A stretch of 64,000 nucleotides of DNA, taken from Microglena sp. YARC. Taxonomy: Eukaryota > Chlorophyta > Chlorophyceae > Chlamydomonadales > Chlamydomonadaceae. The stretch spans positions 37,370,890-37,434,889 of the forward strand of contig CM039465.1 in assembly GCA_022414725.1 (NCBI GenBank). Direction: 5' to 3'. The notes under the pieces are model-generated. The model was given only the letters and a program-made list of their open reading frames with translations. It was not told where the DNA came from and made no database searches. Both the position numbers and the translations under genes were made by a program. This document shows, piece by piece, positions 8,637 to 63,941 of the stretch (its first letter is position 1; the number at the start of each line of letters is the position of its first letter).

Positions 8637-8667
8637 AAAGCTCCAGCACCTATCAACTTCTGGAGAT
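8637..8667 (-). repeat. Copy of the 3' edge of the kinase glycine-loop exon
   Basis: Thirty bases (AGCTCCAGCACCTATCAACT and on) repeat the exon segment at 8704-8733 without its splice donor. It is a partial exon-edge duplicate in the intron. Confidence 0.8.
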
Positions 8668-8695
8668 TTTGGAAAACAAATCACTGTACAATCAC

Positions 8696-8847
8696 CTTGC
8701 CGTAAGCTCCAGCACCTATCAACTTCTGGAGATCAAGTTCCGAGGATTCGATCATTTGGCAGCCGCCAGAGAAGCCAAAGGAGTTTGGGTTGGGCGCTTG
8801 GCTGGACGTGGCTGTAAGAGCGCCGCTGGGCGATTCCGACATGGAGG
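8696..8847 (-). CDS. Exon 11: linker end and kinase glycine loop
   Basis: Acceptor TTCTTTAG at 8848-8855; donor GGCAAG|GTGATT. It begins in phase with the last G of exon 10 and ends on a whole codon. The first 34 codons are Ser/Pro/Asn-rich; the last 16 end in LIGAGAYGK, where G724, G726 and G729 of the partial protein fit the nucleotide-binding loop. The next kinase segment (VAIK-type lysine) should follow in the next exon, which is not found in 1-8690, implying an intron longer than 8.6 kb. Confidence 0.78.
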
Positions 8848-11800
8848 CTAAAGAACAAGGGTGGGGTTTGAGGGATATGAGAGGGAGAGACAGGCTGGAA
8901 GATACGAATGTAATTGTTAATACACCTCAAATGCGGAGGGGATGTAGGGTGTAATCATTTGGTGCAATCATCACGTATAATAGGGTATCATCATCGGGTG
9001 TATGAGGGGAATGTCATCGGGTGTATGAGGGGAATGTCATCGGGTATATGAGGGGATTGTCATCGGGTGTATGAGGGGATTGTCATCGGGTGTATGAGGG
9101 GATTGTCATCGGGTGTATGAGGGGATTGTCATCGGTGTATGAGGGGATTGTCATCGGGTGTATGAGGGGATTGTCATCGGGTGTATTGAGGGGATTGTCA
9201 TCGGGTGTATGAGGGGATTGTCATCGGGTGAATGAGGAGATTGTCATCGGGTGTATGAGGGGATTTTCATCGGGTGTATGAGGGGATTGTCATCGGGTGT
9301 ATGAGGGGATTGCCATCGGGTGTATGAAGGGATTGCCATCGGGTGTATGAGGGGATCATCATCGGGTGTATGAGGGGATTGTCACCGGGTGTATGAGGGG
9401 ATCATCATCAGGTGTATGAGGGGATTGTCATCGGGTGTATGAGGGGATTGTCATCGGGTGTATGAGGGGATTGTCATCGGGTGTATGAGGGGATTGTCAT
9501 CGGGTGTATGAGGGGATTGTCATCGGGTGTATGAGGGGATTGTCATCAGGTGTATGAGGGGATTGTCATCGGGTGTATGAGGGGATTGTCATCGGGTGTA
9601 TGAGGGGATTGTCATCAGGAGTATGAGGGGATTGTCATCGGGTGTATGAGGGGATTGTCATCGGGTGTATGAGGGGATTGTCATCGGGTGTATGAGGGGA
9701 TCATCATCAGGTGTATGAGGGGATTGTTATCGGGTGTATGAGGGGATTGTCATAGGGTATGCTCTAAATACAAATATTTATCGCCAGGTATGATAGGGTA
9801 TAAGCATTGGGTCTGACAGCAGAAATTTGTGTTAAAAAATGACATTTGTCTTCGGTGGCGATGCGAATCGAGCTCCTGTAAAAAACTAGACTGACGGATC
9901 GGCAGTATGGTTTCGCCCACAATGGCGCACTATGCTACCCGGGTTCAATCCCGTGGTACCCCATTTTGAGCCCTTAACTCTCGAGAAAAACGTCGTGAGA
10001 CTTGCTGTGCATTTCAAATTCTCGTAAAGCAAGCATTGAATGATGATCACTCTGCATGTACACAAACCTGTTTCGTCGTGAGAGTTGCTGTGAATTCAAA
10101 AAAAAAAAAACACAAACCTGTTTCGTCGTGAGAGTTGCTGAGCATGATAGGGGCAGTGGGACTACCGCACTCGGAGGAACTTCGCTTCACAGGACCTATC
10201 TGCGTGTCAGATTCGGTCCGGCCATTGGAATTGAGGCTGAACTGTCGCCTTCCGGTTGGTCCTGCAGCAGTGCATTTTTTGTCGATGTTGTTGTTAGTTT
10301 TTTTTTTTACATGACCTGAGTGCACTGACAATGCGTCAGACTCGGTCTGGTTATTGGGAGTCAGGCTAAACTGCCGCCAAACGTTTGGTCCTGCAGCCCT
10401 GCAAGTTGCTTGTTAATTTGCTTGCTTACTTTGCTTTGCTTGTTTATTTCTTTGCTTGCTTGTTGATTAATGTGTTGCTTTGTTTGTTTATTAATTTGTT
10501 TATTTATTTGCATACTTGTTTGTGTGTTGATGTATTTGTTTGTTTATTTTTACACTTGTTTGTGTGTTGCTTTGCTGGTTGATTGATTTGTTTACTTGCT
10601 TGTCTGTTGATTTGCTTGTTGCTTCATTTGTATAATTGTGTGTGTGTAAATTTATTGTGTTGATTTATTTGTATACTTGTTTGTGCGTTGATTCGTGCAT
10701 TTCTTTGTTTGTTTGGCTCAGCAAGATCAATCGAGAATGACTGTAGAAGCCACGGAAGGAGTCGGTATTACTTCTATTACGTATCTGACTTGGATGACGT
10801 CAGAGGAGAGAAGCCATAGTTCCACAAACATTTACTGATTAAGTATTAGGATGATATTAAATGCATAGCAAAACTACGGATATCGGTCGAATGACCCCCC
10901 ACCCCCACCTACCCACCCACAACCTCTACCAGCCCCACCCACCCACCCACAACCTCTCCCAACCCCAATATTGAATGAACCCACACCAGGTTTGGATGAA
11001 GTCGTTCTGTTCATGTTTCAGTCTGATAAAAGGCCTTGACACCAGCACTAACCCTTCGAAACAACCCCTCCACCGCCCAGTGACGAATGAGGCACAGTCC
11101 AGTGCTCAAAACTATGTGTAGGTTTACTGCCTACTTGAAGGGCACTCCTCTTATAGCTGTCGCCCCACATACCTATTTTGTCTGAAGCCATTCTGTCCAT
11201 GTTCCGATCTGTTACAAGGCCTTGATGCTCTGCCTCCGATACGAGTTCCTTGGCTTGCCACAGTTTAATGGTGCCAAGATGGGAGGCGCTCACACACGTG
11301 TTCTCGTATCCCACCATCATAGCAAGGTTTCCTTTGTGGGCTCGAATCTGCAGCAGAAGTTGGATGGTACATGACTACATTAGATATTATGACTACGTTA
11401 CATGTAGGGAACGGCAATATGATGCGATATTATCATATGATGTTAGCAGTCTGATTACCCTTAAGTTCCCATTTATATGCAGATATCATATGATGTTTGC
11501 AGTCTGATTACCCTTAAGTTCCCATTTATATGCAGATATCATATGATGCAATTTTATAAAATGCTGGTCCCTAGTTATGTGAACATTTCAAAAAGTCATG
11601 TTGGTACAGTATTTTATATTTTACATTCTTAATATACATATTTGGAGACATTCCAAGCAGTGAGCACTGTTTTATTTTTCAGCGACGCGTCGACATCCTG
11701 TAGCCATCCTGTTGCTGCATGGTGACGCATGGGTCTGGCAAAAGCAGTCAAAAATGACTCCCAGAGCCCCCGTTTGCTCTTCACGCGGAGCCCCAGGGGT

Positions 11801-14800
11801 TCGGGGGGCAGTGTGTCGCACTGGCGTCGCGCCGAGTCGCTCAATTTGCGATGCGTCAAACACAAAACAGTGGCTGTGGGATGAGTATCAGTACGGTATT
11901 GAAGTACAGTATCAGTACAGTATTTCAGTATCAGTACGGTATTTCAGCTATCAATTTCGACTGACCTATAAAAGTTCAATAATCTGCATAGCGCAAACTC
12001 CGGGCCCCTGTTGTTTACGATTTGTTGAGGTTCAGTTTACATGTGCTTGTTCTGTTTACAGCCCTCCCCAACAGTGAGGTTGGGCAAGTCTATTTAGCCT
12101 ATTTGGCTGGGCCTAAACCAACTAGACTGTAAAACATACACATATATCTTAACTGACCATGACCAGACAAGGCTTGAAAATTCCAAGGTTTGCAGATGAG
12201 CGTTGGTATGGTATTTTGGCTATCCATTTTGTGCCACTTGCTGATCCATAACTTTATGGAGAGATTGTATCAATTCAGTGGGACTATACTAGTATATATG
12301 TGATACACACATACATACACACACAAACACTATTTTGACTGACCATGACTCGACGAGGCTTGAACATTCCAAAGTTTGCAGACGAGAGGTTCTCAGAACC
12401 CGGGGGCTCCATTCCTTGCTGAGCTGTCAGTGCCAGCTCCCCGCTGGCATGACCTATAACCACCAGGTTGTAGTCCTTAAACACGGTGATTCCCCTGATG
12501 GGGCTAGTAGGCTCTCCGATGCGAAGGAGGGGCAGGAGGCGGTCAGAGTCAGGATGCCAAAGGAGGACCTAGCGAACAATTGGTTGTGTCAGTCAGTCAG
12601 TCAGTCAGTCAGTCAGTCAGTAAAATAGTGGGTTAAATAGTCAGCCAGTCAGTCAGTAAGTCAAATAGTGGATTAAAGAGTCAGCCAGTCAGTCAGTAAG
12701 TCAAATAGTGGATTAAAGAGTCAGTCAGTCAGTCAGCAAGTCAGCCAGCCATTGGAGGGCGAAACAGAAAATTGTTTGACCAGCCTGTCAGTCATTCACA
12801 GCAGTCGCGGACATACATTTCTTGGCATGTCAATCAGTCGGCTACCTTTGTCACATCTCATCACACAAATACCAATAAAATCACACTACACCACACCTCA
12901 TCACTTAATTCCTAGATTATTTAATTCCTGGAGTACCTGTCCATTCCCATGGCCTGTGAACAGCTGCCATTGGGTAGCCTGAGACCCTAACCCAAGGGGT
13001 CTGGCCAGGCCGGTGGCAGAGCCTGCAAACTTAGCTATTATTCCCAACTCACCTCACCAAACCACCCTTCTCGTTTATTTACGAATTTCATGATGACCTG
13101 TCCATTCACAAGGCCTGTGAACAGCTGTCATTGGGTGGCCTGAGACCCTAACCCAAGCGGTCTGGTCAGGCCGATGGCAGAGCTTGCATACCTAGCTCGT
13201 ATTCCCAACTCAACTCACCCCACTCCAACCTTCTCAATTATTTACAGATTTCATGAGTACCTGTCCATTCTCAAGGCCAGTGAACAGACGCCATTGGGCA
13301 GCCTGAGACCCTAACCCAACCGGTCCGGCCAGGCCAGTGGCAGAGCTTACATACATAGCTTATATTCCCATTCCACCCCACCACACTCCACCCCACCACT
13401 CTTCTCGTTTATTTATGAATTTCATGATTACCTGTCCATTCCCATGGCCTGTGAACAGCTGCCATTGGGTAGCCTGAGACCCTAACCCAAGCAGTCTGGT
13501 CAGGCTGGTGGCAGAGCCTGCAAACCTAGCTTCTATTCCCAACTCACCCCACTCCACCACCCTTCTCGTTTATCTACAACTTTCAAGCGTACCTGTCCAT
13601 TCCCATGGCCAGTGGACAACCGCTATTGGGTAGCCTAGGACCCTAACCCAAGGGGTCCGGCCAGGCCGGTGGCAGAGCCTGCATAGCTAGCTCATACTCC
13701 CCACTCCACCCCACCCCATCACCCTTCTTGTTTATTTGTAATTACATGAGTACCAGTCCATTATCAAGGCCAGTGAACAGACGCCATTGGGTAGCCTGAG
13801 ACCCTAACCCAAGGGGTCCGGCCAGGCCGGTGGCAGGGCCTGCATAGCTAGCTCATACCCCTTACTCCACCCCACCCCACCACCCTTCTTGTTTATTTGT
13901 AATTACATGAGTACCAGTCCATTATCAAGGCCAGTGAACAGACGCCATTGGGTAGCCTGAGACCCTAACCCAAGGGATCTGGTCAGGGCGGTGGCAGAGC
14001 CTGAAAATCTAGCTATTATTCCCAACCCACCTGCACCCCTCACTCCATCCCTCCACACCACCCTTCTCGTTTATTTGCAAATTTCATGAGTACCTGTCCA
14101 TTCTCATGGCCAGTGAACAGCCACTAATTGGTAGTCTGAGACCCTAACCCAAGGGATCTGGTCAGGCCGGTGGCAGAGCTTGCGTACCTAGCTCAAATTC
14201 CCAACCCACCTCACCCCACTCTACCCCACCATCCTACTCGTTTATTTACGAATTTCAAGCGTACCTGTCCGTTCTCATGGCCAGTTAGCAGCCGCCATCG
14301 CGTTGCCTGAGACCCTAACCCAAGCGGTCTGGTCAGGCCGATGGCAGAGCTTGCATACCTAGCTCGTATTCCCAACCCACCTCACCCCACTCCACCCCAC
14401 CATCCTACTCGTTTATTTACGAATTCCAAGCGTACCTGTCCGTTCTCATGGCCAGTTAGCAGCCGCCAAGTAGCCTGAGTCCCGAACGCAGTGGACAAGC
14501 TGTTAGTCGCGAAGTTGCCTGGATCGAAGTCCTTCCTTTCAGTCAGGCTGGATGCAGAAACGGACTTGGCCATAGAGCTTGACCTAGAGGGTGGACTTGA
14601 TCCCCAACGGATGGGGCTGATGGCATTGCCTGGATAGGGAGGGTTGGGTTGGGTTGGGTTGGGTTGGAGGGGGGGGGGGGGGGGGGGGGGGGGAAGGGGG
14701 TCAGGCAGGTGGCTGAATCTGAGCTAATCCTTGCGGGCTGGATGCAGAGTGGGTTGTGTTGTCAGTTGTGTTGTCAGTTGTGTTGTCAGTTGTGTTGTCA

Positions 14801-15522
14801 GTTGTGTAGTCAGTTGTGTTGTAAGTTGTGTAGGTTGTGATGTAAGTTGTGTAAGCAACTGTCCTATAACAGCACCACCTGAAGCAATCCTTATCAATAA
14901 TCACACACTCCAAAGACTCTCCAATAAATAATCACACACTCCAAAGACTCTCCCATATATCGATGTGTGTGTAGGTGTCAGCAGACCACAAAGCCAGCCA
15001 GCCGTCATTGCAATAACTGTCATATAACAGCACCACCCCAAGCACCCTTTAACAATACTCACACAATCCAAAGGTTGGACTCTCCTAGATATCTATGTGA
15101 AGTTAGGTGTCAGCAGACCACAGGGTTAAGCAGCTACCACTAAGGCAAATGTAATATAACAGCACCACCCCAAGCACCCCTGATCAATACTCACACACTC
15201 CAAAGGTTGGACTCTCCCAGATATCGATTTGCGTGTAGGTGTCAGCAGACCACAAAGCTAGCCAGCCATCAGTGCGTCCTCCGCCCACCCATGCCCTAGA
15301 ATTGGACACAAAGATACATCGTGCCGGACCCTGAGCTCTCTTGGGTGGAGTTGAGGCGGTAGCTGTCTTGTACCACAGCGCCTTCGCAGCTGGCTTGCCT
15401 GCAGCGCCTGCACCAGGCTTATCAGGCTGCACAGGGTACAAATAAAAGGCAGTGGGATAAGGTTTTTTTAAGTTGGACACTAAGATGCATCGTGCCGGAC
15501 CCTGGGCTCTTTTTGCAGCTGT

Positions 15523-15553
<31 letters not shown>

Positions 15554-18500
15554 GGTGGTGGTGAGTTGGGTTGGGTTGGGTTGGGTTGGGTTGGGTTGGG
15601 GGGGGATGTATTTGTGAAGTTAGGGTGTTTGTGGGTGGTGGGTGGGTGGGGGTGGAATTGGGGGGTTGGGTTGGGTTGGGTTGGGTTGGGTTGGGTTGGG
15701 TTGGGTTGGGGGGGGGGCTGTGTGTGTGATAGCACCCAACAATAAGTTGGTCACTAAAATGCATCGTGCCGGACCCTAAGCTCTTTTGGCAGCTGTTGTG
15801 TGTGTGTATGTGTGAGTGGGTGGGTGGGTGGGGGGGAGGTCTGTGTGTGATAGAATTAACAAGGCAGCAGCTGTCTTGTACCAAAACTGATTCGCGGCTG
15901 GCTTGCCTGCAGTGCCGGCACCTGGCTGATCAGGCTGCACAGGGTACAAAGAAAAAGCAGTGGGATAAGTTTTTTAAGTTGGACACAAAGATGCATCGTG
16001 CCGGACCCTGAGTTGTTTTGGCAGCTGTCGTGTCTGTGTGTGTGTTAGTGTGTGTGAGATAGCACCAACAGCGGGATCTATCTTGTACCACAACTGCTTC
16101 ACGGCTGGCTGGCCTGCAGCGCCGGCACCTAGCTGATCAGGATGCACAGGTTTCGAAGAAAAAGCAGTGGGATCAGTTGTTTTAAATATGGACACAAAGA
16201 TGCACCGTGCCGGACCCTGAGCTTTTTTGGCAGCTGTAGTGTGTGGGTTGGTGGGGTGAGGGGTGAGTCTAGTAGCACAATTGCTTCGCGGCTGGCTGGT
16301 CTGCAGCGCAGGAACCTGGCTGATCAGGCTGCACAGGGCATATGCCGAAGGGGATTGGATCAGTTTTTCACAAGGGAGCATTATGAAAAGGGAAGAAGTG
16401 GGGGTAGTTTTGGGATAAGGGGTTGGAAAGGGAGCATTAAGAAAACGGAGGAAATGGGGGTGGTTGTCATGAAAGGGGTAGGAGGGATGCCCTGTGAATA
16501 CAGCACAGGAGATGGGTTTCGTTTTTGAATAGGGATCGTCATGAGAAGGGAGGAAGTGGGGTCAGTTTTTATGAAAGGGGCAGGACCAATGCCCAGGGCA
16601 CACAGCCAAGGCAGCGGGATTAGTTTCTGACGTGGGAGCAACATGAAAAGGGAGGAAGTGGGGATGGTTATGATAAAAGGGGTAGGAGGGATGCCCAGGG
16701 AGCACAGCCTATGGGATGAGATTAGTTTCTGACAAGGGAGCAACATGAAAAGGGAGGAAGTGGGGATAGTTTTGATAAAAGGAGTAGGAAGGATGCCCTG
16801 GGCCTACAGCCTAGGGGATGGGATTAGTTTCTGACAAGGGAGCAACATGAGAAGGGAGGAAGTGGGGATAGTTGTGATAAAAGGAGTAGGAAGGATGCCC
16901 TGGGCCTACTGCCTAGGGGATGGGATTAGTTTCTGACGAGGGAGCAACATGAGAAGGGAGGAAGTGGGGATAGTTTTGATAAAAGGAGTAGGAAGGATGC
17001 CCTGGGCCTACAGCCTAGGGGATGGGATTAGTTGATGACAAGGGAGCGTCATAAAAAGGGAGGAAGTGGGGGAAGTTTTGATAAAAGGGGTAGGAAGGAT
17101 GCCCAGAACCAAAACCCAAAACCCTAAACTCAAGGGGCAGGGTGCACAGCACAGGAGATGGGATTCGTTTTTGAATAGGGAGCGTGATAGAAAGGGAGGA
17201 AGTGGGGACAGTTTTGATGAAACGGATAGGAGGGATGCCCAGGGCACACAGCACAGGCGGCGGGATTAGTTTACAGAAAGAAGGTGGGCAGCCCCGAGTA
17301 GGCTGAAAAAACGTTAAACAATCAAATTAACAAGTCCGCAACGTACCTGACCCCCCTTACTCTGGCTCTTCCCGACCCCATGCATATCTAACCCCAACCC
17401 AATGCCTATCTAACCCCAACCCTATGCCTATCTAATTCCAACCCCAGGCTTATCTAAACCCAACCCCAGGCCTATCTAACTGAACCCCATGACTGTCTAA
17501 ACCCAACCCCGGGCCTGTCTAACTGAACCCCATGACTGCCTAACCCCAAGTCTGCAGCGTACCTGCTTCAACTCAAGGCTGCTTAGATGGACCAGGGACG
17601 AGACCACCTCCAGCTTGGTTTCATTTGAGTCGTACTTCAGCACTCGCACTTGACCCTGATCGTCGGCCACCCAGGCTCTGCCCTTTGAATCGAAGCTGAT
17701 CACCCTGATAGAAAGGTGGAAATGTGAACGTTGTCAGCAGGGTAGTTCAAAACTTCCAGAGAGGTGAGTGTTTGCTTTCACAAACACTTCCATTGGGATG
17801 TGCATGTTGACACACACATTTTTGACTTGTCTTTTCAGATGTTGACTGAGATGTGCGTGTTTCCCCCGTTTTCAAAGGTTTTCCCGCACATTTTGAGAGG
17901 GACGTGCACTTTTACAAGCATCGCGTGGGTCCCCAATATAAACCATGCAAAATCATATACTCATCGTAAGTCCCAGTTCGACGCCCCGTCTCTGGTCCCC
18001 ACCCCCCACCAGCCACCCCCACACCAGCGGCAAAACCAACCCCTTACAACTGAGACACCTGACAGGGGTTGCTGGGCCCTGATTTTCGATCACAAATTTC
18101 TAGGCCTGCTTTTTCTTCATCAGCATGAGACCCTTCCCATGACCCGCCAGAACCCAGCGACAAAACCAACCCCTTATAACTGACGCACCTGACAGGGGTT
18201 GCTGGGCCCTGATTTTCTATCACCAATTCTCAGGCCTGCTTTTTCTTCACAAGCACTAGACCGTTATCGTGGCCCAACCATACCCCCAGCGACAAAAACA
18301 ACACATTGCAGCTGACGCACCTGACAGGGGTTGCTGGGCCCTGATTATCTATCACCAATTCCCAGGCCTGCTTTTTCTTCACGCGCACTAGACCCTCAAA
18401 GTGGCCTCACCCCACCCCAGGGGCAAAAACAAACAACCCCTTACAACAGACACACCTGACAGGGGTTGATGGGCCATGATTATCTATCACCAATTCCCAG

Positions 18501-21500
18501 GCCTGCATTTCTTCACGCGCACTAGACCCTCAAAGTGGCCTCACCCCACCCCAGGGGCAAAAACAAACAACCCCTTACAACAGACACACCTGACAGGGGT
18601 TGCTGGGCCATGATTATCTATCACCAATTCCCAGGCCTGCATTTCTTCACGCGCACTAGACCCTCAAAGTGGCCTCACCCCACCCCAGGGGCAAAAACAA
18701 ACAACCCCTTACAACAGACACACTGACAGGGGTTGCTGGGCCATGATTATCTATCACCAATTCCCAGGCCTGCATTTCTTCACGCGCACTAGACCCTCGA
18801 AGTGGCCTCACCCCACCCAGGGGCAAAAACAAACTACCCCTTACAACAGACGCACCTGACAGGGGTTGCTGGGCCCTGATTTTCTATCACCAATTCCCAG
18901 GCCTGCTTTTTCTTCACGCGCACTAGACCCTCAAAGTGGCATCACCCCACCCCAGGGGCAAAAAACAAACAACCCCTTACAACAGACACACCTGACAGGG
19001 TTGATGGGCCATGATTATCTATCACCAATTCCCAGGCCTGCTTTTTCTTCACGCGCACTAGACCCTCAAAGTGGCATCACCCCACCCCAGGGGCAAAAAC
19101 AAACAACCCCTTCCAACAGATACGCCTGACAGGGGTTGATGGGCCATGATTATCTATCACCAATTCCCAGGCCTGCATTTCTTCACGCGCACTAGACCCT
19201 TGAAGTGGCCTCACCCCACCCAGGGGCAAAAACAAACAACCCCTTACAACAGACACACCTGACAGGGGTTGCTGGGCCATGATTATCTATCACCAATTCC
19301 CAGGCCTGCATTTCTTCACGCGCACTAGACCCTCGAAGTGGCCTCACCCCACCCAGGGGCAAAAACAAACTACCCCTTACAACAGACGCACCTGACAGGG
19401 GTTGCTGGGCCCTGATTTTCTATCACCAATTCCCAGGCCTGCTTTTTCTTCACGCGCACTAGACCCTCAAAGTGGCATCACCCACCCCAGGGGCAAAAAC
19501 AAACAACCCCTTACAACAGACACACCTGACAGGGGTTGATGGGCCATGATTATCTATCACCAATTCCCAGGCCTGCTTTTTCTTCACGCGCACTAGACCC
19601 TCAAAGTGGCATCACCCACCCCAGGGCAAAACAAACAACCCCTTCCAACAGATACGCCTGACAGGGGTTGATGGGCCATGATTATCTATCACCAATTCCC
19701 AGCCTGCATTTCTTCACGCGCACTAGACCCTTGAAGTGGCCTCACCCCACCCAGGGGCAAAAACAAACAACCCCTTACAACAGACACACCTGACAGGGGT
19801 TGCTGGGCCATGATTATCTATCACCAATTCCCAGGCCTGCATTTCTTCACGCGCACTAGACCCTCGAAGTGGCCTCACCCCACCCCAGGGGCAAAAACAA
19901 ACTACCCCTTACAACAGACGCACCTGACAGGGGTTGCTGGGCCCTGATTTTCTATCACCAATTCCCAGGCCTGCTTTTTCTTCACGCGCACTAGACCCTC
20001 AAAGTGGCATCACCCCACCCCAGGGGCAAAAACAAACAACCCCTTACAACAGACACACCTGACAGGGGTTGATGGGCCATGATTATCTATCACCAATTCT
20101 CAGGCCTGCTTTTTCTTCACGGCGCACTAGACCCTCAAAGTGGCATCACCCCACCCCAGGGGCAAAAACAAAACAACCCCTTCCAACAGATACGCCTGAC
20201 AGGGGTTGATGGGCCATGATTATCTATCACCAATTCCCAGGCCTGCATTTCTTCACGCGCACTAGACCCTTGAAGTGGCCTCACCCCACCCCAGGGGCAA
20301 AAACAAACAACCCCTTACAACAGACACACCTGACAGGGGTTGCTGGGCCATGATTATCTATCACCAATTCCCAGGCCTGCATTTCTTCACGCGCACTAGA
20401 CCCTCGAAGTGGCCTCACCCCACCCAGGGGCAAAAACAAACTACCCCTTACAACAGACGCACCTGACAGGGGTTGCTGGGCCCCTGATTTTCTATCACCA
20501 ATTTCCCAGGCCTGCTTTTTCTTCACGCGCACTAGACCCTCAAAGTGGCATCACCCCACCCCAGGGGCAAAAACAAACAACCCCTTACAACAGACACACC
20601 TGACAGGGGTTGATGGGCCATGATTATCTATCACCAATTCCCAGGCCTGCTTTTTCTTCACGCGCACTAGACCCTCAAAGTGGCATCACCCCACCCCAGG
20701 GGCAAAAACAAACAACCCCTTCCAACAGATACGCCTGACAGGGGTTGATGGGCCATGATTATCTATCACCAATTCCCAGGCCTGCATTTCTTCACGCGCA
20801 CTAGACCCTTGAAGTGGCCTCACCCCACCCCAGGGCAAAAACAAACAACCCCTTACAACAGACACACCTGACAGGGGTTGCTGGGCCATGATTATCTATC
20901 ACCAATTCCCAGGCCTGCATTTCTTCACGCGCACTAGACCCTCGAAGTGGCCTCACCCCACCCCAGGGGCAAAAAACAAACTACCCCTTACAACAGACGC
21001 ACCTGACAGGGGTTGCTGGGCCCTGATTTTCTATCACCAATTCCCAGGCCTGCTTTTTCTTCACGCGCACTAGACCCTCAAAGTGGCATCACCCCACCCC
21101 AGGGGCAAAAACAAACAACCCCTTACAACAGACACACCTGACAGGGGTTGATGGGCCATGATTATCTATCACCAATTCTCAGGCCTGCTTTTTCTTCACG
21201 CGCACTAGACCCTCAAAGTGGCATCACCCCACCCCAGGGGCAAAAACAAACAACCCCTTCCAACAGATACGCCTGACAGGGGTTGATGGGCCATGATTAT
21301 CTATCACCAATTCCCAGGCCTGCATTTCTTCACGCGCACTAGACCCTTGAAGTGGCCTCACCCCACCCCAGGGCAAAAAACAAACAACCCCTTACAACAG
21401 ACACACCTGACAGGGGTTGCTGGGCCATGATTATCTATCACCAATTCCCAGGCCTGCATTTCTTCACGCGCACTAGACCCTCGAAGTGGCCTCACCCCAC

Positions 21501-24500
21501 CCCAGGGGCAAAAACAAACTACCCCTTACAACAGACGCACCTGACAGGGGTTGCTGGGCCCTGATTTTCTATCACCAATTCCCAGGCCTGCTTTTTCTTC
21601 ACGCGCACTAGACCCTCAAAGTGGCATCACCCCACCCCAGGGGCAAAAACAAACAACCCCTTACAACAGACACACCTGACAGGGGTTGATGGGCCATGAT
21701 TATCTATCACCAATTCCCAGGCCTGCATTTCTTCACGCGCACTAGACCCTCAAAGTGGCCTCACCCCACCCCAGGGGCAAAAACAAACAACCCCTTACAA
21801 CAGACACACCTGACAGGGGTTGCTGGGCCATGATTATCTATCACCAATTCCCAGGCCAGCATTTCTTCACGCGCACTAGACCCTCAAAGTGGCCTCACCC
21901 CACCCCAGGGGCAAAAACAAACAACCCCTTACAACAGACACACCTGACAGGGGTTGCTGGGCCATGATTATCTATCACCAATTCCCAGGCCTGCATTTCT
22001 TCACGCGCACTAGACCCTCGAAGTGGCCTCACCCCACCCCAGGGGCAAAAACAAACTACCCCTTACAACAGACGCACCTGACAGGGGTTGCTGGGCCCTG
22101 ATTTTCTATCACCAATTCCCAGGCCTGCTTTTTCTTCACGCGCACTAGACCCTCAAAGTGGCATCACCCCACCCCAGGGGCAAAAACAAACAACCCCTTA
22201 CAACAGACACACCTGACAGGGGTTGATGGGCCATGATTATCTATCACCAATTCCCAGGCCTGCTTTTTCTTCACAAGCACTAGACCCTCAAAGTGGCATC
22301 ACCCCACCCCAGGGGCAAAAACAAACAACCCCTTCCAACAGATACGCCTGACAGGGGTTGCTGGGCCATGATTATCTATCACCAATTCCCAGGCCTGCAT
22401 TTCTTCACGCGCACTAGACCCTTGAAGTGGCCTCACCCCACCCCAGGGGCAAAAACAAACAACCCCTTCCAACAGACACACCTGACAGGGGTTGCTGGGC
22501 CATGATTATCTATCACCAATTCCCAGGCCTGCTTTTTCTTCACGCGCACTAGACCCTCAAAGTGGCATCACCCCACCCCAGGAGCAAAAACAAACAACCC
22601 CTTACAACAGACACACCTGACAGGGGTTGATGGGCCATGATTATCTATCACCAATTCCCAGGCCTGCTTTTTCTTCACGCGCACTAGACCCTCAAAGTGG
22701 CCTCACCCCACCCCAGGGGCAAAAACAAACAACCCCTTACAACAGACACACCTGACAGGGGTTGATGGGCCATGATTATCTATCACCAATTCCCAGGCCT
22801 GCATTTCTTCACGCGCACTAGACCCTTGAAGTGGCCTCACCCCACCCCAGGGGCAAAAACAAACTACCCCTTACAACAGACGCACCTGACAGGGGTTGCT
22901 GGGCCCTGATTTTCTATCACCAATTCCCAGGCCTGCTTTTTCTTCACCCGTACAAGACCCTTGATATGGCCTGACCAAACGTTGCCCTCATGATCCACGG
23001 CAAGGCAGGTGACGGTAAGGTTAGGATCCTTCACTTCGAACGCTGTGGTTGAATCTGACGACTCTGAAAAAAACTCCAGGAGCTGGCCTGCAGACAGACA
23101 AACGTACATTTGAATAGGCAGGACAAACAAACATTTGAAAAGAACAGACAAACATACATTTGAATAGGACAGACAAACATACATTTGAATAGGCAGGACA
23201 GTCGTACATTTGAATAGGCAGGACAAACGTACATTTGAATAGGCAGGACAAACATAAATTTGAATAGGCAGGACAAATGTACATTTGAATAGGCAGGACA
23301 ATCGTACATTTGAATAGGACAGACGAACGTACATTTGAATGGGCAAGACAATCATACATTTGAATATCGGGTAGGACACTCTTCCATATATACAGTACCG
23401 GCTATAGTACTGCTTTAGGCAGGACAGAAACTGGTGAGCGGTGCAACATGAGCCTAACAAGAAGTGAGAGGTCACTAAGGTGCTCCTGGAAAAACATACA
23501 CATAGAGAGCATGAATTTCAGATGATATTGTACGTTATCGAGCGTATTCACCAGTGCAACACGTGTGTGCATTGATCGTGTGTGTAAGTAGTGCACATAT
23601 ACCTGTACAACACACAACACAGATGTGCATTGATTGTGTATGTAAGTAGTGCACATATACCTGTACAACACACAACACATACGTGCATTGATCATGTGTG
23701 TAAGTGGTGCAAATACACCCGTAAAACACAAAAGGCTTATGTGCATTGATCATGTTTGTAAGTAGTGCACATAAACTTGAATAGGTAGATCAATACACGG
23801 TGGGCAGTGAAACGTGAGCCTCACTCAAATGAGTGAGTCATGTCTGCAAAATTTGTCAAGTATATACCTAGAATTGTATGAAGTGCCCTTTTCTGTGAGC
23901 CATAATTTCTAGTCGTGGGCTTTATTATGTGGGCCATATATTTCATAAAAATGTTGTCGAAGACCCTAATTTACCAAATTGTGTAGACAATATATTTGTG
24001 GGGTGCTCTCGTTGATAAGACCTTTCTTTGTCGTATGCTGCCCATGGTGTACCGGCTCATGCAGCAGACAACAGCCCTACCAAACGTGTACACGCAAACC
24101 CGTATAACTAGGGAATGGCAATATGATATCATATGATGCAGGCAACCAGTTAAAGAGTAAAGTTACCATTTATATACAATACCACATGATGCAATGTGTA
24201 TGATATCGTACGATATCATACTCGCCTTTGGTCAACATTATATGATATGCTGGTCCATACATATAACACATTTGGATACATCCATGACAAACCATTGTTT
24301 AGGTCAGATGGATGCACTAATATTCCACCAGACACATTAAGATAACAGTGTTATGCTTATTGAATCAGAACATGCATGTTGCTTCAAGTGTCTGCTTATT
24401 TTTCATTCCAACACCTTCCTCCGATTTCCGTTTGGGACTTATTTTGGATCTGATGACCTCTTAAACCTCCTCAACCTAGACTCCTGAAGCTCCTATACCC

Positions 24501-39538: not shown

Positions 39539-39569
<31 letters not shown>

Positions 39570-42500: not shown

Positions 42501-45500
42501 GTGTGTGGTGTATTTGACAAAGTGCAGCCTAAGAATTTAACATAGTGGTATTTAGGTTGGAGTTGGAGAGGTCAGCATTGCGTAGGTTAGCACTTCTCAA
42601 GTCGGCTCTGCTGATCTCTGCACCTGTGATTTTACAGCTGCGAGACGGGGGGGGGGGGGGGGGGTATGTGTGTATTCGACAGAGTGTAGCCTAAGACATT
42701 ATACATAATGCCATAGAGGTTGGGAGTCGGAGAGGTCCAGCATTGCGCAGATTAGCACTTCTCTGCTGATCTCTGTACCTGTGCTTTTCCAGCTACAGGA
42801 CAGGACAGGACAGGTGTGTGTGGTGTATTTGACAAAATGCAGCCTAAGACATTTTAACATAGTGGCATTTAGGTTGGAGTTGGAGAGATCACATTGCGTA
42901 GGTTAGCACATCTCAAGTTTGGCTCTGCTGATCTCTGCACCTGTGATTTTGCAGCTACAGGACAGGACAGACATGTGCGTGTGTGGGTGTATTTGACAAA
43001 GTGCAGCCTAAGACATTTAACATAGTGGCATTTAGGTTGGAGTTGGAGAGGTCAGCATTGCGTAGGTTAGCACTTCTCAAGTCGGCTCTGCTGATCTCTG
43101 CACCTGTGATTTTACAGCTGCGAGACGGGGGGGGGGGGGGGGGGTATGTGTGTATTGACAGAGTGTAGCCTAAGACATTATACATAATGCCATAGAGGTT
43201 GGAGTCAGAGAGGTCAGCATTGCGCAGATTAGCACTTCTTCTGCTGATCTCTGTACCTGTGCTTTTGCAGCTACAGACAGGACAGGACAGGTGTGTGTGT
43301 GTGGTGTATTTGACAAAGTGCAGCCTAAGACATTTAACATAGTGCATTTAGGTTGGAGTTGGAGAGATCACATTGCGTAGTTAGCACATCTCAAGTTGGC
43401 TCTGCTGATCTCTGCACCTGTGATTTTGCAGCTACAGGACAGGACAGACAGGTGTGTGTGTGTGTGTATTTGACAAAGTGCAGCCTAAGACATTTAACAT
43501 AGTGGTATTTAGTTGGAGTTGGAGAGCGTCAGCATTGCGTAGGTTAGCACTTCTCAAGTCGCTCTGCTGATCTCTGCACCTGTGATTTTACAGCTGCGAG
43601 ACGGGGGGGGGGGGGGGGGGGGTATGTGTGTATTTGACAGAGTGTAGCCTAAGACATTATACATAATGCCATAGAGGTTGGAGCCGGAGAGGTCAGCATT
43701 GCGCAGATTAGCACTTCTCTGCTGATCTCTGTACCTGTGCTTTTCCAGCTACAGGACAGGACAGGACAGGTGTGTGTGGTGTATTTGACAAAATGCAGCC
43801 TAAGACATTTAACATAGTGGCATTTAGGTTGGAGTTGGAGAGATCACATTGCGTAGGTTAGCACATCTCAAGTTGGCTCTGCTGATCTCTGCACCTGTGA
43901 TTTTGCAGCTACAGGACAGGACAGGACATGTGTGTGTGTGTGGTGTATTTGACAAAGTGCAGCCTAAGACATTTAACATAGTGGCATTTAGGTTGGAGTT
44001 GGAGAGGTCAGCATTGCGTAGGTTAGCACTTCTCAAGTCGGCTCTGCTGATCTCTGCACCTGTGATTTTACAGCTGCGAGACGGGGGGGGGGGGGGGGGT
44101 ATGTGTGTATTTGACAGAGTGTAGCCTAAGACATTATACATAATGCCATAGAGGTTGGAGTCAGAGAGGTCAGCATTGCGCAGATTAGCACTTCTCTGCT
44201 GATCTCTGTACCTGTGCTTTTGCAGCTACAGGACAGGACAGGACAGGTGTGTGTGTGTGGTGTATTTGACAAAGTGCAGCCTAAGACATTTAACATAGTG
44301 GCATTTAGGTTGGAGTTGGAGAGATCACATTGCGTAGGTTAGCACATCTCAAGTTGGCTCTGCTGATCTCTGCACCTGTGATTTTGCAGCTACAGGACAG
44401 GACAGGACAGGTGTGTGTGTGTGGTGTATTTGACAAAGTGCAGCCTAAGACATTTAACATAGTGGCATTTAGGTTGGAGTTGGAGAGGTCAGCATTGCGT
44501 AGGTTAGCACTTCTCAAGTCGGCTCTGCTGATCTCTGCACCTGTGATTTTACAGCTGCGAGACGGGGGGGGGGGGGGGGGTATGTGTGTATTTGACAGAG
44601 TGTAGCCTAAGACATTATACATAATGCCATAGAGGTTGGAGTCGGAGAGGTCAGCATTGCGCAGATTAGCACTTCTCTGCTGATCTCTGTACCTGTGCTT
44701 TTGCAGCTACAGGACAGGACAGGACAGGTGTGTGTGGTGTATTTGACAAAGTGCAGCCTAAGACATTTAACATAGTGGCATTTAGGTTGGAGTTGGAGAG
44801 ATCACATTGCGTAGGTTAGCACATCTCAAGTTGGCTCTGCTGATCTCTGCACCTGTGATTTTGCAGCTACAGGACAGGACAGGACATGTGTGTGTGTGTG
44901 GTGTATTTGACAAAGTGCAGCCTAAGACATTTAACATAGTGGCATTTAGGTTGGAGTTGGAGAGATCACATTGCGTAGGTTAGCACATCTCAAGTTGGCT
45001 CTGCTGATCTCTGCACCTGTGATTTTGCAGCTACAGGACAGGACAGGACAGGTGTGTGTGGTGTATTTGACAAAGTGCAGCCTAAGACATTTAACATAGA
45101 GGCATTTAGGTTGGTGTTGGAGAGGTCAGCATTGCGTAGGTTAGCACTTCTCAAGTCGGCTCTGCTGATCTCTGCACCTGTGATTTCAGCTGCGAGACGG
45201 GGGGGGGGGGGGGGGGGGGGGGGGTATGTGTGTATTTCACAGAGTGTAGCCTAAGACATTATACATAATGCCAGAGAGGTTGGAGTCGGAGAGGTCAGCA
45301 TTGCGCAGATTAGCACTTCTCTGCTGATCTCTGTACCTGTGCTTTTGCAGCTACAGGACAGGACAGGACAGGTGTGTGTGTGTGGTGTATTTGACAAAGT
45401 GCAGCCTAAGACATTTAACATAGTGGCATTTAGGTTGGAGTTGGAGAGGTCAGCATTGCGTAGGTTAGCACTTCTCAAGTCGGCTCTGCTGATCTCTGCA

Positions 45501-46046
45501 CCTGTGATTTTACAGCTGCGAGACGGGGGGGGGGGGGGGGGGGGGTTATGTGTGTATTTCACAGAGTGTAGCCTAAGACATTATACATAATGCCATAGAG
45601 GTTGGAGTCGGAGAGGTCAGCATTGCGCAGATTAGCACTTCTCTGCTGATCTCTGTACCTGTGCTTTTGCAGCTACAGGACAGGACAGGACAGGTGTGTG
45701 TGTGTGGTGTATTTGACAAAGTGCAGCCTAAGACATTATACATAGTGGCATTTAGGTTGGAGTTGGAGAGGTCAGCATTGCGTAGGTTAGCACATCTCTG
45801 CTGATCTCTGCACCTGTGATTTTGCAGCTACAGGACAGGGGTGTGCGTGTGTGTGGTGTGTGTGTGTGTGTGTGTGTGTGGGGTGGGGGGGGTATGTGTA
45901 TTTGCCTAAGTGTAGCCTAAGACATTAAGCATAGTGCCATAGAGGTTGGAGCCGGAGAGGTCAGCATTGCGCAGATTAGAACATCTCTGCTGATCTCTGC
46001 ACCTGTGATTTTGCAGCTACAGGACCTTGGTGTGTGTGTGTGTGTG

Positions 46047-46077
<31 letters not shown>

Positions 46078-47998
46078 GGGGGGGGGGGTATGTGTATTTG
46101 CCTAAGTGTAGCCTAAGACATTAAGCATAGTGCCATAGAGGTTGGAGTCGGAGAGGTCAGCATTGCGTAGGTTAGCACATCTCTGCTGATCTCTGCACCT
46201 GTGATTTTGCAGCTACAGGACATGGGTGGGTGGGTGGGGGGGTATTTGACAAAATGCAGCCTGACACTAAGCATAGTGCCATAGAGGTTGGAACCGGAGA
46301 GGTCAGCATTGCGTAGGTTAGCACTTCTCAAGTCAACTCTGCTGATATCTGTGTTCGCGATTTTTCAGCTGCAGGACGGACCGACAAACAGACAGGGGTG
46401 GGAATGGGGTGGGCTATGTGTGTGGGGTATATGTAGGGAACAGCAATACAATATGATGCCAGCAGTCAGACTAGGCTAAAGTTACCATTTATATACAATA
46501 TCATATGATGCGATTGTTATGATATCATATGATGCGATTGTTATGATATCATATGATATCATTGTCGCCTTTGGTCAACATCATATGATATTCCCAGTGT
46601 TCTTTTTTACGGCGACGCGTCGCCACTGCGTCGCCCACCCGTCGTGGCTGGGCGACGCATGGGTTTGGATAAACTAGTCACAATTGGCCTTCCCTCGCCC
46701 ACGAAGCTACAGAAGGCCATTGGCCAATTGTTTTTAGTCCCTAAGGACCCCCTAAATCTGCGCCCGCCGGCCTAACTGTAAAGGGGTGGCGCTTTGTGCC
46801 GCACACTACAAAATCCGGTGGGCTACTCAACGTTTCTGAAATCAGGTTTGAGTAGCACACTCTGGTGGGCTACTCAACTTTTCTGAAATCAGGCTTAGCC
46901 CACCCGGCTACAGAACCTTGCCTAGAAAAATCTGAAATAAAAAACACTGGATATGCCTGTCCATACATATGACACATACGGATACATCCATGATGAAGCA
47001 TTGCTTGGGTCAGATGGATGCAGGTCCCTACTTATGGGTCAGTATGGGCACAGATGGATATACCAGCCACTGTTTGTTTTTTGGGCTACGTGTAGCAGCT
47101 TCTAGGAAGCTCCTTTCACCCGCCTATGGGCCAAATCTGAAGCTAGCTAGTGCCTCTGAAAGCTAGCATGACAGGCATTGCAATGCAGCTATAATCCTTG
47201 GCCTCGAATCAGTCGCTGCCTATCAGAGCTGGGTGCAAGCTGCTATGCGTAGCCTGAACAAGTCCTAGGCATAGCACAGTATAGGGCGGAGCGCAAAGCG
47301 CGGAGCCCCGGGAGGTTTGGTGGGCAGCACGTCTACTGTTTGTTTTTTGGGCTACGCGTATCAGCTTCTAGGAAGCTCCTTTCACCCACCTTTGGGCCCA
47401 ACCTGAAGCTAGCTAGTGCCTCTGAAAGCATATAGCATGACAGGCATTCCAATGCAGCTTTACTCCTTGGCCTCGAATCAGTCGCTGCCTAACAGAGCTG
47501 GGTGGAAGCTGCTGTGCGTAGCCCGAACAAGAGCTAGGCATAGCACGGTATAGGACTGAGCGCAAAGCGCGGAGCCCCAGGGGTTCGGGGGGCAGCACGT
47601 CGCACTAGGGTTGCACTGGGCTTCACTGGGTTTGCACTGAGTCGCTCAATTATAAAATACAAAACACTGGTGCAACCAGGGGGTAGTGAGAAAGTTGTTT
47701 TCACATACCTATGTCGAAGTTTTTATAATCTGCCCCCCCCCCCCCCCCCCCCACCCACCCACCACACAAAAAACCATATCTACCGGGGTGCAACTTACTT
47801 TTCACAGCTAGCATCATTCATGAGGACACTGTGGGAGTCGGGGGGGTCGGGGTGCAGCACGTCGCTCTGGGGTCGCACCTAGTCCTTCAATTATAAAATA
47901 CAAAACACTGGTGCAACTTACTTTTCGCAGTTTGCATCATTCATGAGGACACCGGACAGCACCTTCTTGCCGAGATCAAGATTGGAGAAGTCACATCC
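37873..47998 (-). CDS. Pentapeptide-repeat protein gene (partial; at least 3 exons)
   Basis: Exons in transcript order are 47922-47998, 39010-39155 and 37873-38023; at least one linking exon is missing or unrecognised because the phase of the first does not meet the second. The product folds as a right-handed beta-helix of A(D/N)LxX repeats (GCDFSNLDLGKK, ADLRSANLRNADLSDSNL, GADLRGAQFENTIL). The C-terminal FEG...SDVERLCENPTL resembles the tail of plant and algal plastid-lumen pentapeptide proteins, whose function is unknown; that placement is inference and no transit peptide is visible. The introns contain the 478-bp exon-derived satellite, a LINE fragment and MITEs. Confidence 0.68.
38035..38175 (+). 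mobile_element. LINE 3'-end fragment (inverted relative to the others)
   Basis: Reverse complement of the 3' UTR of the three LINE copies: TCCTCGACACCCCCTGAAAA, TTTGCTTTGTGGTGCTTTTT, AAAGCACAGAGTCTCGTACA, GGCGGTGTCAAG, then ACATGTAATG, the first tail unit. Diverged; sits in the last intron of the pentapeptide gene. Confidence 0.85.
38390..38835 (-). repeat. Array of 4 copies of the penultimate exon's 3' edge
   Basis: Units of about 110-150 bp share GTGTTCTCAAACTGAAATTA, the complement of the exon end (CAGTTTGAGAACAC), and AAATCAAATATGAACCGAAA. The copy at 38655-38700 also keeps the coding end and donor (TTGGCAAGG). Confidence 0.85.
39010..39155 (-). CDS. Pentapeptide gene, penultimate exon (parent of the array)
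   Basis: Acceptor TCATTGGTGCAG, donor TTTGGCAAG|GTCGGT; 146 bp. ISRADLRSANLRNADLSDSN, then LYGTMLNGADLRGAQFENTI and LTMASFGK: eight to nine consecutive pentapeptides. It needs one base from the preceding exon and ends on a whole codon that continues into the terminal exon. Confidence 0.8.
39156..46375 (-). repeat. Exon-derived satellite: 160-bp monomers in 478-bp trimers, about 40 monomers
   Basis: Each monomer, minus strand, contains an acceptor-like ...CACAG, GTGCAGAGATCAGCAGA, the pentapeptide-coding AACCTACGCAATGCTGACCT or AATGTGATCT, a variant of AACCTAAATGCCACTATGTT, then GTCTTAGGCTGCAC and a GT/CA or C-run. Three types alternate: one with TTTACAGCTGCGAGAC and a G-run, one with GTACCTGTGCTTTTGCAGCT, one with CATCTCAAGTTGGC. 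The marker AATGCCATAGAGGTTGGA recurs near 40325, 40800, 41283, 41761, 42230, 42708, 43190, 43669, 44148, 44626, 45270 and 45590: 478-bp spacing except the last two (644 and 320, summing to two units). Ends at 39.2-40.2 kb and 45.7-46.4 kb are diverged. Copies lack the exon's last third and its donor. Confidence 0.93.
46434..46965 (+). mobile_element. MITE-1 element, copy 4, interrupted by a hAT-like element
   Basis: Left part TAGGGAACAGCAATACAATA...CGCCTTTGGTCAACATCATA, right part ATGCCTGTCCATA. The 24109-24259 copy supplies the uninterrupted form (ATTATATGATATGCTGGTCC). A TGATGCGATTGTTATGATAT block is duplicated inside. Confidence 0.85.
46587..46957 (+). mobile_element. hAT-like miniature element nested in MITE-1
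   Basis: Element 46595-46949 (355 bp), ends CAGTGTTCTTTTTTAC and ATAAAAAACACTG, flanked by GATATTCC and GATATGCC (7 of 8 identical). Interior shares GCGACGCGTCGCC and GGGCGACGCATGGGT with 11665-11872, plus a local tandem TCTGGTGGGCTACTCAACNT. No transposase. Confidence 0.85.
47068..47671 (+). mobile_element. hAT-like family element with internal tandem duplication
   Basis: Starts CACTGTTTGTTTTTTGGGCT and ends TAAAATACAAAACACTG. A segment of about 265 bp (GGCTACGTGTAGCAGCTTCT ... GCGCAAAGCGCGGAGCCCC) is present twice (47076-47331, 47345-47600). Truncated relatives: 47828-47912 (right end) and 48353-48545 (left end). No target duplication recognised. Confidence 0.65.
47790..47832 (-). repeat. 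Copy of the first pentapeptide exon's 3' edge with donor
   Basis: TTACTTTTCACAGCTAGCAT and CATTCATGAGGACAC repeat 47918-47951; minus strand keeps the GTAAGTTGCACC donor. Confidence 0.88.
47922..47998 (-). CDS. Pentapeptide gene, upstream exon
   Basis: Acceptor TTCATACAACCCAG, donor GAAAA|GTAAGTTG; 77 bp. GCDFSNLDLGKKVLSGVLMN with DANCE fits degenerate pentapeptides. It ends two bases into a codon, which does not fit the exon at 39.1 kb, so another exon must lie between. Upstream exons and the start codon are not found. Confidence 0.65.
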
Positions 47999-49299: not shown

Positions 49300-49800
49300 T
49301 TGTCGGAGTGGGTGGGTGGATGGGAGCTGGTGGGTGGGTAGGTAAGTGGGTGTGGAGTGTGGTGTGGTGTGGCGAGCTAAGATGTGCAAATGGTGTATAC
49401 CAGCCAACTTCCACAATGTGGCTGCGTGTTTGCCTTAGTGCGTGCCTGCTGTCTGGCTGGCTGTGTCTATGGCTGTGTGTGTGGAAGGAGGGGGAGGGGC
49501 GATCAACAAGTGGTGACTGACCATAGGACACCTCCATTGAAAAACATTGCCTGAGTGTGTGGCTGTGTGTGTGGCTGTGAGTTTTGCTGTGTGTGGCTGT
49601 GTGTGGCTGTGTGTGTGGAAGGAGGAGGAGAGGCGAGCAACAAGTGGTGACTAACCTTGGGACATCTCCATTGAAAACTACATGTACGTGTGTGTGGCTG
49701 TGCGTGTGGCTGTGTGTGTGGAAGGAGGCAGTGCATGGAAGGAAGCAGAAGGGCGCGCAACAAGTGGTAACTAACCTCCGGCCACCTCCAGTGAGAATTT
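49300..49800 (+). repeat. GT-rich tract and about 135-bp tandem repeat (3 copies)
   Basis: GTGTGTGGCTGTG runs, with GCAACAAGTGGTGACTAAC and GACACCTCCATTGAAAA-type blocks at 49503, 49639 and 49757. The last merges into the uS9-like unit (CACCTCCAGTGAGAATTTGG). Confidence 0.88.
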
Positions 49801-50542
49801 GGCCCTGGTGTTGGCAAACTTGTCAAATGATGCGATCGAACACCTGCAGCACAATGGGGTAGTGGAGGGGAATGTTTTCAATATTTACATTTGTGTTAGA
49901 AAAATAATGTTTTCGACATTTATATTTCGTTCGTTCAGGTTGGGCCCCAGCCAGACTCAAGCCAGACCTGCAAAAACTCATACAACTTCTCAAAACCCAA
50001 CCAGACCTCTGACTGCCTTCATCTCTGGCGCAATAAATCGTAAAAATACGCCTGATCTGCGTATGTGCATCTCAGAATGGTGCGGACACGGTCAATTCAT
50101 TATGTGCCTCTTTTTTTTGAATCAAAAACCACGAGGTCAGATGAAATGAGAAATGATGTTCCAAATGTGTACAAGAAAAAAGGTGGTGGAATAATTTGTC
50201 AAGCGGAGGCTACTCAATTAGGACTTGCACGAGCAGTTTTTGGTACGAAACGTTTGCCATATGACGTGTTAGTGAACCTGCCTGAAAATGAGGACGAGGA
50301 GGGGAAACAGTTTTGGGCTTCACGTACCGGTAGATAATAATTTCTTCTTTTCTATTTAAATTAGACGTGAACCTGTGTGAGCAATAACAACTACCAGGGA
50401 TGAATTTACTGATTTTAGTCTATACCGCAAAAAGATGAAACTCCTAATTATTTTTGTACAGCTGGTCACACTCAAGGAATCATGTACCCGCATCACTATA
50501 AGCAAGAGGGGGAGAAACGGAATAGGGGTTTACGTGTCGGTA

Positions 50543-60169: not shown

Positions 60170-60320
60170 CCCACACTCACTAAAATATAACAATACCCAC
60201 AACAACCACAACAACAACACATCAACAACAACCACAACCACAACAACAACATCCATAAAAGCAACACCCACAACAGCACCAACCAACCAACCAACCAACC
60301 AACCAACCAACCAACCAACC
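60170..60320 (+). repeat. CAACAA-rich tract and (CCAA)n
   Basis: ACAACAACCACAACAACAAC, then eleven CCAA units (60276-60319), just upstream of the first pseudo-acceptor. Confidence 0.92.
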
Positions 60321-60535
60321 CATTGCTCATCAGGTAATATCGATGATGGCGGAACAGGTAGGAGCTGCAGCGGCGGGCAAGCGTCACAAAACAGTGACCC
60401 CCCACCCACCCCACCCCACCCTCTCACCCCTACACCACCGACCACCAACTAACCCATTGCTCATCAGGCAATATCGATGATGGTGCAACAACTGGTAGCT
60501 GCAGCAGCCGGCAAGCCTAACAAAATAGTACCCCT
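60319..60535 (+). repeat. Two copies of the 5' edge of the exon at 60613
   Basis: CCATTGCTCATCAG|GTAATATCGATGATGG at about 60320 and CCATTGCTCATCAG|GCAATATCGATGATGG at about 60453. Each keeps the acceptor and 50-60 coding bases before diverging into C-rich intron. Confidence 0.92.
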
Positions 60536-60612: not shown

Positions 60613-60780
60613 GCAATATCGATGATGGCGCAACAGCTAGGAGCAGCAGCAGCCGGCAAGTCTAACAAAGCAGTGACCACCATTTATGGCAATGCCTTTT
60701 CCAAGTACTCAGTTGTGAGACGAATGGTGGCGCTGAAGTATGGTGGCAGTACGCCAGTCACCAAGCAGCTCATTGCTGAG
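60613..60780 (+). CDS. Exon of an unrecognised protein
   Basis: Acceptor ATTGCTCATCAG, donor GCTGAG|GTAAGG; 168 bp, 56 codons, phase 0 at both ends. Peptide AISMMAQQLGAAAAGKSNKA, then a basic/hydrophobic part (FSKYSVVRRMVALKYGG) ending TKQLIAE. No family recognised. Joins in phase with the exon at 63836-63941. Its 5' edge is present two extra times upstream. Confidence 0.65.
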
Positions 60781-63655: not shown

Positions 63656-63694
63656 GGGCCCATATACTACCTTCCTCTAACCGGTCGTCATGTT

Positions 63695-63750
63695 TTCATC
63701 ATTGGTCACAGGCGGAGGAACAGCTGGGTGTGTTCAGTGCTAACAACCAC
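63695..63750 (+). repeat. Copy of the 5' edge of the exon at 63836 with acceptor
   Basis: ATTGGTCACAG|GCGGAGGAACAGCTGGGT and GTTCAGTGCT match 63824-63865 (GGTCACAG|GCGGAGAAACAGCTGGGT). A weaker relative is at 63055-63080 (GGTGGGGAAACAGCTGG). Confidence 0.9.
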
Positions 63751-63835
63751 AGCAACAACAACCACAGCCAAACCCACCACAAACTTGACATACAAACAAA
63801 CACAAACACAACAACCACCACCATCATGGTCACAG

Positions 63836-63941
63836 GCGGAGAAACAGCTGGGTATGTTCAGTGCTGCGCCCAAGCAAAAAGGGGATTACACTGTTCGAGA
63901 TTACCTGGCCACTCCAGGCCAATCTTCAAATCCAAAGTCTG
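63836..63941 (+). CDS. Second exon of the unrecognised plus-strand protein
   Basis: Acceptor CATGGTCACAG, donor AAGTCTG|GTGAGC. AEKQLGMFSAAPKQKGDYTV, RDYLATPGQSSNPKS; phase 0 in, continuing KQLIAE of the exon at 60780, phase 1 out. The intron between them (3.05 kb) holds MITE-3, LINE copy 3, REP-A and three tandem repeats. Confidence 0.65.

Follow-up and report, generated by a model that had tools for sequence, protein, structure and literature searches.

Local direct copies of exon edges in introns of the green alga Microglena sp. YARC

Here we report that introns in a 64,000-nucleotide stretch of the genome of the green alga Microglena sp. YARC (C4:37370890-37434889 of a 568-Mb assembly of 2390 contigs; hereafter the window) hold direct copies of the edges of the exons that they adjoin. 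A nearby copy was detected at 17 of 34 splice edges and at 13 of 19 exons, in four genes; at 14 edges it crosses the junction, and at three further edges the exon part alone is copied. Affected edges have between 1 and 43 copies each; relative to the authentic edge, every one of the 111 window copies is on the intron side. The explanation that we favour (probability about 0.8) is untargeted tandem duplication whose two breakpoints lie in the exon and in the intron, respectively, and which is tolerated as the exon-proximal junction survives. A preliminary description of the window had proposed tandem duplication with such breakpoints, which the direct orientation and the intron-side position of the copies support. 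Every place that it named has local direct copies of its exon edge, and its exon coordinates agree to the base with the edges fixed here. Its statement that almost every exon is affected was too strong, given the counts above and those of a paralogous locus (3 of 16 edges), and its range of 1 to about 36 copies, which is borne out at the donor edge at 22886 (36 copies), extends here to 43.

The set of 34 edges was drawn from EukProt models and GT-AG sites. Window proteins match three consecutively numbered EukProt gene models, all on the minus strand: P0032, a beta-propeller protein (gene25957); P0001, a Trp/Tyr permease (gene25958); and P0035, a pentapeptide protein (gene25959) whose closest named relatives are from green algae. 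The fourth gene, on the plus strand and of unknown family, contributes four edges that are based only on open frames and GT-AG sites, without a protein model. All ten P0032 exons were matched in the window, the mismatches being one residue near the start and alignment overhangs past the edges, and the permease exon at 32008..32963 matches residues 142-458 of P0001 at 100%. For the exon at 47922, P0035 begins further inside than the edge used here; the acceptor at 47999 was set after the algal relatives P0036, P0037 and P0039, and is free of copies under either start. None of the three gene models contains a repeated exon.

Each edge was represented by 60 exon and 60 intron bases and compared with 7 kb on each side (E ≤ 1e-3); a copy was taken to cross the junction if it held at least 12 exon and at least 4 intron bases. 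An earlier self-comparison had yielded 11 of 28 edges, and the addition of six P0035 edges together with the smaller search space raised this to 14 of 34. The signal is specific to an edge's own surroundings and to one orientation: no edge copy was found in 340 comparisons with mismatched flanks, and none of the 34 edges has an inverted copy in its own flanks. Among the 102 junction-crossing copies, GT or AG is intact in 90, and 78 match a simple splice consensus as well as or better than the authentic site does, in agreement with the preliminary description of introns full of decoy sites. That the donor or acceptor itself is copied holds for most of the junctions it listed; at three edges (8696, 11173 and the donor of 39010) the exon part alone aligns at E ≤ 1e-3, although the copy at 11173 extends just beyond the junction under looser settings. 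Divergence between copies and authentic edge reaches about 27%, and is similar in the exon and intron parts of the copies.

At three places (12931-14468, 18037-22961 and 39948-45839) the copies form regular head-to-tail units, contiguous with their source and offset from it by the unit length, with higher-order periods of about 537 nt and 477 nt.

Splice junctions are not enriched for this process in the loci tested, and the preliminary description's reading of a junction-by-junction amplification is not supported. With the same procedure, a local copy crosses 138 of 224 random intron points in the window, as against 14 of 34 edges; for intergenic points the figure is 43 of 150, and for points in exon interiors 10 of 112. 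At the paralogous P0033 locus the corresponding figures are 46 of 98 for random intron points, 0 of 48 for exon-interior points and 3 of 16 for edges. When the duplicated blocks of the earlier self-comparison (15 introns, hence 30 edges) were rotated within each intron plus 60 exon bases, 16.9 edges (SD 2.7) were expected to be crossed, compared with 11 observed. Coverage by copies drops gradually into the exons (28 edges): it is 0.48 over the terminal 20 nt and 0.24 at 81-100 nt. A tandem repeat even spans a stop-codon end, at which there is no splice junction. Targeting of splice junctions is thus not supported. A comparison of exons with their introns, which the preliminary description had suggested for the whole genome and which was run on a sample of loci, gives the same picture: edge copies are far above chance similarity, but not above the local duplication background, in the sampled loci.

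Several observations nevertheless weigh against untargeted tandem duplication. At 14 donors, coverage is slightly higher in the exon tails (0.53) than in the first 60 bases of the intron (0.39-0.42), and the spans from an edge to its farthest copy take up 16,470 of 37,567 intron bases (44%). Both would suit an amplification seeded by some property of the splice junction, such as chromatin, R-loops or nascent RNA structure, and the 44% suggests that junction-bearing units may be preferentially amplified once formed; against the lower crossing of edges than of random intron points, the rotation result and the duplication of intergenic points and of a stop-codon end, we nonetheless regard a junction-specific process as quite unlikely. 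A second difficulty concerns copies outside the arrays, several of which (30-70 nt) are far shorter than their offset (50-186 nt) and do not form clean tandem pairs. Such short blocks, separated by unrelated spacer, are what short templated insertions during end-joining repair, or fragments brought in by mobile elements, might leave behind, and two copies do adjoin an inverted-repeat element with CAGGG ends. Templated insertions are expected to yield both inverted and edge-less copies. However, inverted copies are absent from all 34 window edges and all 16 P0033 edges, and only 3 of 63 extra partial matches in other gene families share neither edge with their source, which makes this origin unlikely. 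Thirdly, one observation in favour has little force: none of the 17 window exons tested has a copy with both of its edges (the largest share of an exon in one copy is 0.61), yet a hand estimate predicts no more than about one whole-exon copy for the window. This absence is weak evidence, and for the same reason it was dropped as proof of selection. A near-whole exon copy is present at the P0034 locus.

Under untargeted tandem duplication, short stretches of the genome would duplicate nearby and in direct orientation, commonly about 100 to 210 nt apart, through breakpoints that are not aimed at junctions. A duplication with its two breakpoints on either side of an exon-intron boundary, in the exon and in the adjoining intron, would copy the exon edge together with the donor or acceptor; since the junction nearest the exon would be left intact, the mature mRNA need not change and such an event can persist. 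Duplications within exons would mostly be purged, presumably with selection acting as the filter. Some copies would then amplify into arrays; the intron would grow longer and fill with decoy sites, which would decay no differently from other bases. Unequal exchange or slippage is the probable engine, and the short spaced copies may be tandem duplications blurred by later insertions or by turnover of the spacer.

The process is not confined to the window. In 20 stretches of 10 kb taken at regular places in the genome, local direct duplication covers a mean of 42% and a median of 37% of the sequence, four stretches containing runs of N (10-50%) that lower their coverage. The distance to the nearest local copy falls most often in the class of 120-209 nt, which holds 27% of the duplicated bases in these stretches and 49% of those in the window and is close to the size of a nucleosome repeat. 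The preliminary description's view of a genome-level process is supported in that edge copies recur at several loci, namely those of P0033 and P0034 and chaperonin, dynein and kinesin loci.

At the P0033 locus (C2:27507000-27521500), all eight junctions that were tried could be resolved, with copies at three of the 16 edges, none in inverted orientation and none in 64 mismatched comparisons; this is the only rate that comes from a whole gene not chosen for the feature. The P0034 locus was selected because its protein had repeats, and part of the stretch reads N; two of the three edges tested there are copied (in the exon numbering of the window paralogue, the exon 3 acceptor has two copies and the exon 4 acceptor ten), and the exon 4 donor has none. 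Self-comparison of P0034 gave nothing by BLAST, and a shift count gave two partial repeats. At P0033 the acceptor that corresponds to window exon 8 is copied, and at P0034 those that correspond to window exons 3 and 4; these window counterparts carry no copies. Related genes are therefore affected at different edges, which indicates independent events. Intron positions also differ between P0033 and its window paralogue: window exons 2 and 3 correspond to a single P0033 exon, and one P0033 intron falls within window exon 7.

The side on which copies lie was surveyed in five families or regions: a chaperonin, three dynein regions and a kinesin, comprising 382 six-frame matches in 128 clusters. 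The family tables contain best candidates only, so that all counts are lower bounds. Beside 30 of 319 primary matches there are 63 extra partial matches (chaperonin 1, dynein regions 12, 24 and 16, kinesin 10): 26 lie downstream and share the end of the primary match, 19 lie upstream and share its start, 3 share neither and 15 share both, an edge being counted as shared if agreement is within 5 profile positions. Every one of the 45 one-edge extras lies on the intron side of the shared edge. Among these, two (C1:61042890 and C1:42404206) share an end of the profile that is not necessarily an exon edge, and another two (C5:13851402 and C5:13880756) look like copies made by one segmental duplication. 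Extras that share both ends, 15 in number and 13 of them from a single dynein exon together with its inverted copy on C5, were left out of this rule. Tandem duplication with breakpoints in exon and intron fits the side rule, and a scattered insertion of exon fragments would not give it. In the chaperonin gene, in which edges were not fixed, copies touch four of seven coding segments: three run past the segment end into the flank, one holds inner bases only and one segment overlaps its own copies. In the dynein gene at C1:61043188 there are seven copies of a donor edge, with spacings of mostly 155-175 nt, and that at C1:29815188 has four acceptor-edge copies at a spacing of about 154 nt.

Edge copies are found at identical junctions, the AAA_6 donor near position 109 and the DHC_N2 acceptor at 314, in two dynein heavy-chain genes (C1:29.81-29.83 Mb and C1:61.04 Mb), so that either the arrays were present before the gene was duplicated or these edges were struck in two separate instances. 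The end of a dynein gene, with a long array of acceptor-edge copies (C5:13827637-13837685), occurs again in inverted orientation about 40 kb away (C5:13875141-13881147), as either a segmental duplication or a feature of the assembly.

An artefact of assembly or sequencing was also weighed as the source of the copies themselves. The window departs from the EukProt proteins by frame-breaking differences at 34930-35386 (34.9-35.4 kb) and at about 37880-38023 (near 38.0 kb), which reflect either residual read errors or another assembly version; base-level errors are therefore possible, and array copy numbers, which come from the assembly alone, are not reliable to the unit. However, the copies diverge by as much as about 27% and show higher-order periods, the side rule holds without exception in other genes, and an assembler would hardly copy junction edges alone and place them on the intron side alone. 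We consider an artefact extremely improbable.

What becomes of the copied splice sites was addressed from their conservation and their coding consequences. At the seven edges at which selection on the decoy sites was looked for, none was seen: their GT or AG columns do not stand out in conservation. Of 13 cases in which the nearest intact decoy is put in place of the authentic site, 9 would acquire a stop and three others a frameshift, and one would keep an open frame; the nearest decoy lies at an in-frame spacing in 7 of 13, an excess that is not convincing. The conservation result and the stops and frameshifts, together with the copying of paralogues at different edges, argue against a function of the arrays, be it as a splicing sink or through regulated use of alternative sites. 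Such a role might be read from the intact GT or AG of most decoys, many of which at least equal the authentic site on the simple consensus, and from the EukProt model of P0034, which takes one edge copy as an exon; that model is a prediction and not RNA evidence, and we judge a functional role very unlikely. The authentic sites are probably chosen by exon definition, as neither a decoy donor nor a decoy acceptor has its partner site at exon distance.

The arrays share properties with several known systems. Intronic satellites and minisatellites are head-to-tail arrays that grow in copy number and develop higher-order periods. The arrays of the alga are alike in all three respects (with periods of about 537 and 477 nt), but their unit differs in containing the edge of a coding exon along with a splice site that looks intact. 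Tandem exon duplication, which gives mutually exclusive exons, likewise duplicates exonic sequence directly into the neighbouring intron; it copies both splice sites, whereas the copies in the window are one-edged (0 of 17 exons with both). Introner elements are related copies that make introns in unrelated genes, whereas the edge copies match their own flank only (0 of 340 mismatched). Among the marks of a boundary-crossing tandem genomic duplication, a direct local copy and the presence of both exon and intron bases in it are found at 17 and 14 of the 34 edges, respectively; contiguity with the source at an offset of one unit length holds for the arrays, and several single copies are shorter than their offset. 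The nearest precedent found in print is a potato gene: a tandem duplication across an intron-exon boundary gave rise to one new spliced intron, with evidence from RNA reads (PMC4974935). That case has in common with the alga a direct tandem segment that spans an intron-exon boundary and brings native splice signals with it; it involves one duplication and a new intron, whereas the alga has up to 43 copies inside an old intron, and at many junctions. In the classical model of intron gain, an AGGT-bearing exonic segment is duplicated (PMC3443670, PMC2891723); tandem duplication there also touches coding sequence and the duplicate supplies splice sites, but the segment is exonic, whereas in the alga it is part intron and the copy stays intronic. 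The type of event is thus already known, and the preliminary description's view of an unnamed process is partly wrong, a boundary-crossing duplication having been published for the potato gene (PMC4974935); its density and array form were not found described, judging by title and opening of the abstract, among the papers listed.

A broader proposal is that the introns of this lineage owe most of their growth to the amplification of their own splice junctions, which would form a genome-wide class of what might be called junction satellites, and that the spliceosome passes over dozens of near-perfect decoys in one pre-mRNA, since only sites paired across the exon would count. We hold this as a tentative possibility. 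If true, the genome would be a natural experiment on exon definition, and where introns are short to begin with, duplication of exon edges would be a general way of lengthening them. An intron may hold up to 43 edge copies, most with intact GT or AG, and the gene models keep one copy per exon; because decoy-rich introns and single-copy exons occur together in this way, the choice of splice site among near-identical sites becomes testable in nature. The alga also supplies many events for an intron-lengthening mechanism that we found published only as an isolated case. For gene predictors the P0034 model, with its edge copy included as an exon, is a warning.

The individual sites in P0032 are as follows, all on the minus strand. 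Exon 3 (22886..23087) is the source, through its donor edge, of an array with units of about 134 nt in which the exon tail and donor occur in 36 copies (18037..22885). Both edges of exon 5 (15195..15426) are copied, the acceptor edge three times (15875..16338) and the donor edge twice (14924..15122), and exon 6 (14436..14629) is followed by an array of nine donor-edge copies in units of about 161 nt (12931..14435). The donor edge of exon 7 (12344..12568) has one copy at 12134..12200. For exon 8 (11173..11347) a copy of the 3' part lies at 10991..11039, with a donor that is not alignable at E ≤ 1e-3. Exon 9 (10118..10261) is again copied at both edges, with one acceptor-edge copy (10335..10403) and one donor-edge copy (10060..10090) that lies 50 nt from the authentic donor. 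Exon 10 (8696..8847), which we take to resemble the start of a kinase region, has a copy of coding bases without the donor (8638..8667).

In the other two minus-strand genes, the last exon of the permease (32008..32963) has an acceptor-edge copy at 33103..33146; the preliminary description was right about this edge, but 32008 is a tandemly repeated stop-codon end (repeat at 31952..32055) and not a splice junction. The P0035 pentapeptide exon at 39010..39175 is copied at both edges. Its acceptor edge recurs in an array with units of about 160 nt and a 477-nt higher order (39300..46364, limits approximate), with 43 copies up to 7 kb from the edge and one or more beyond; on the other side are four copies of its 3' part without an aligned donor (38392..38818). 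The upstream pentapeptide exon (47922..47998) has one donor-edge copy (47787..47829), and a further P0035 exon, absent from the preliminary description (49776..49843), has two (49482..49677). On the plus strand, the exon at 60613..60780 has two acceptor-edge copies (60298..60524) and the next exon of that gene (63836..63941) has one (63697..63741).

Further repeats were noted in the window. The short element with CAGGG inverted ends is present in three copies (8415-8637, 33147-33351 (minus) and 60794-60985), each within about 190 nt of an exon edge. Two similar reading frames, at 30853-31419 and 61275-62164 (minus), presumably resemble the ends of LINE reverse transcriptases. An array with units of about 102 nt occupies 1-8328 and continues some 11 kb leftward past the window, with breaks and a period that changes.

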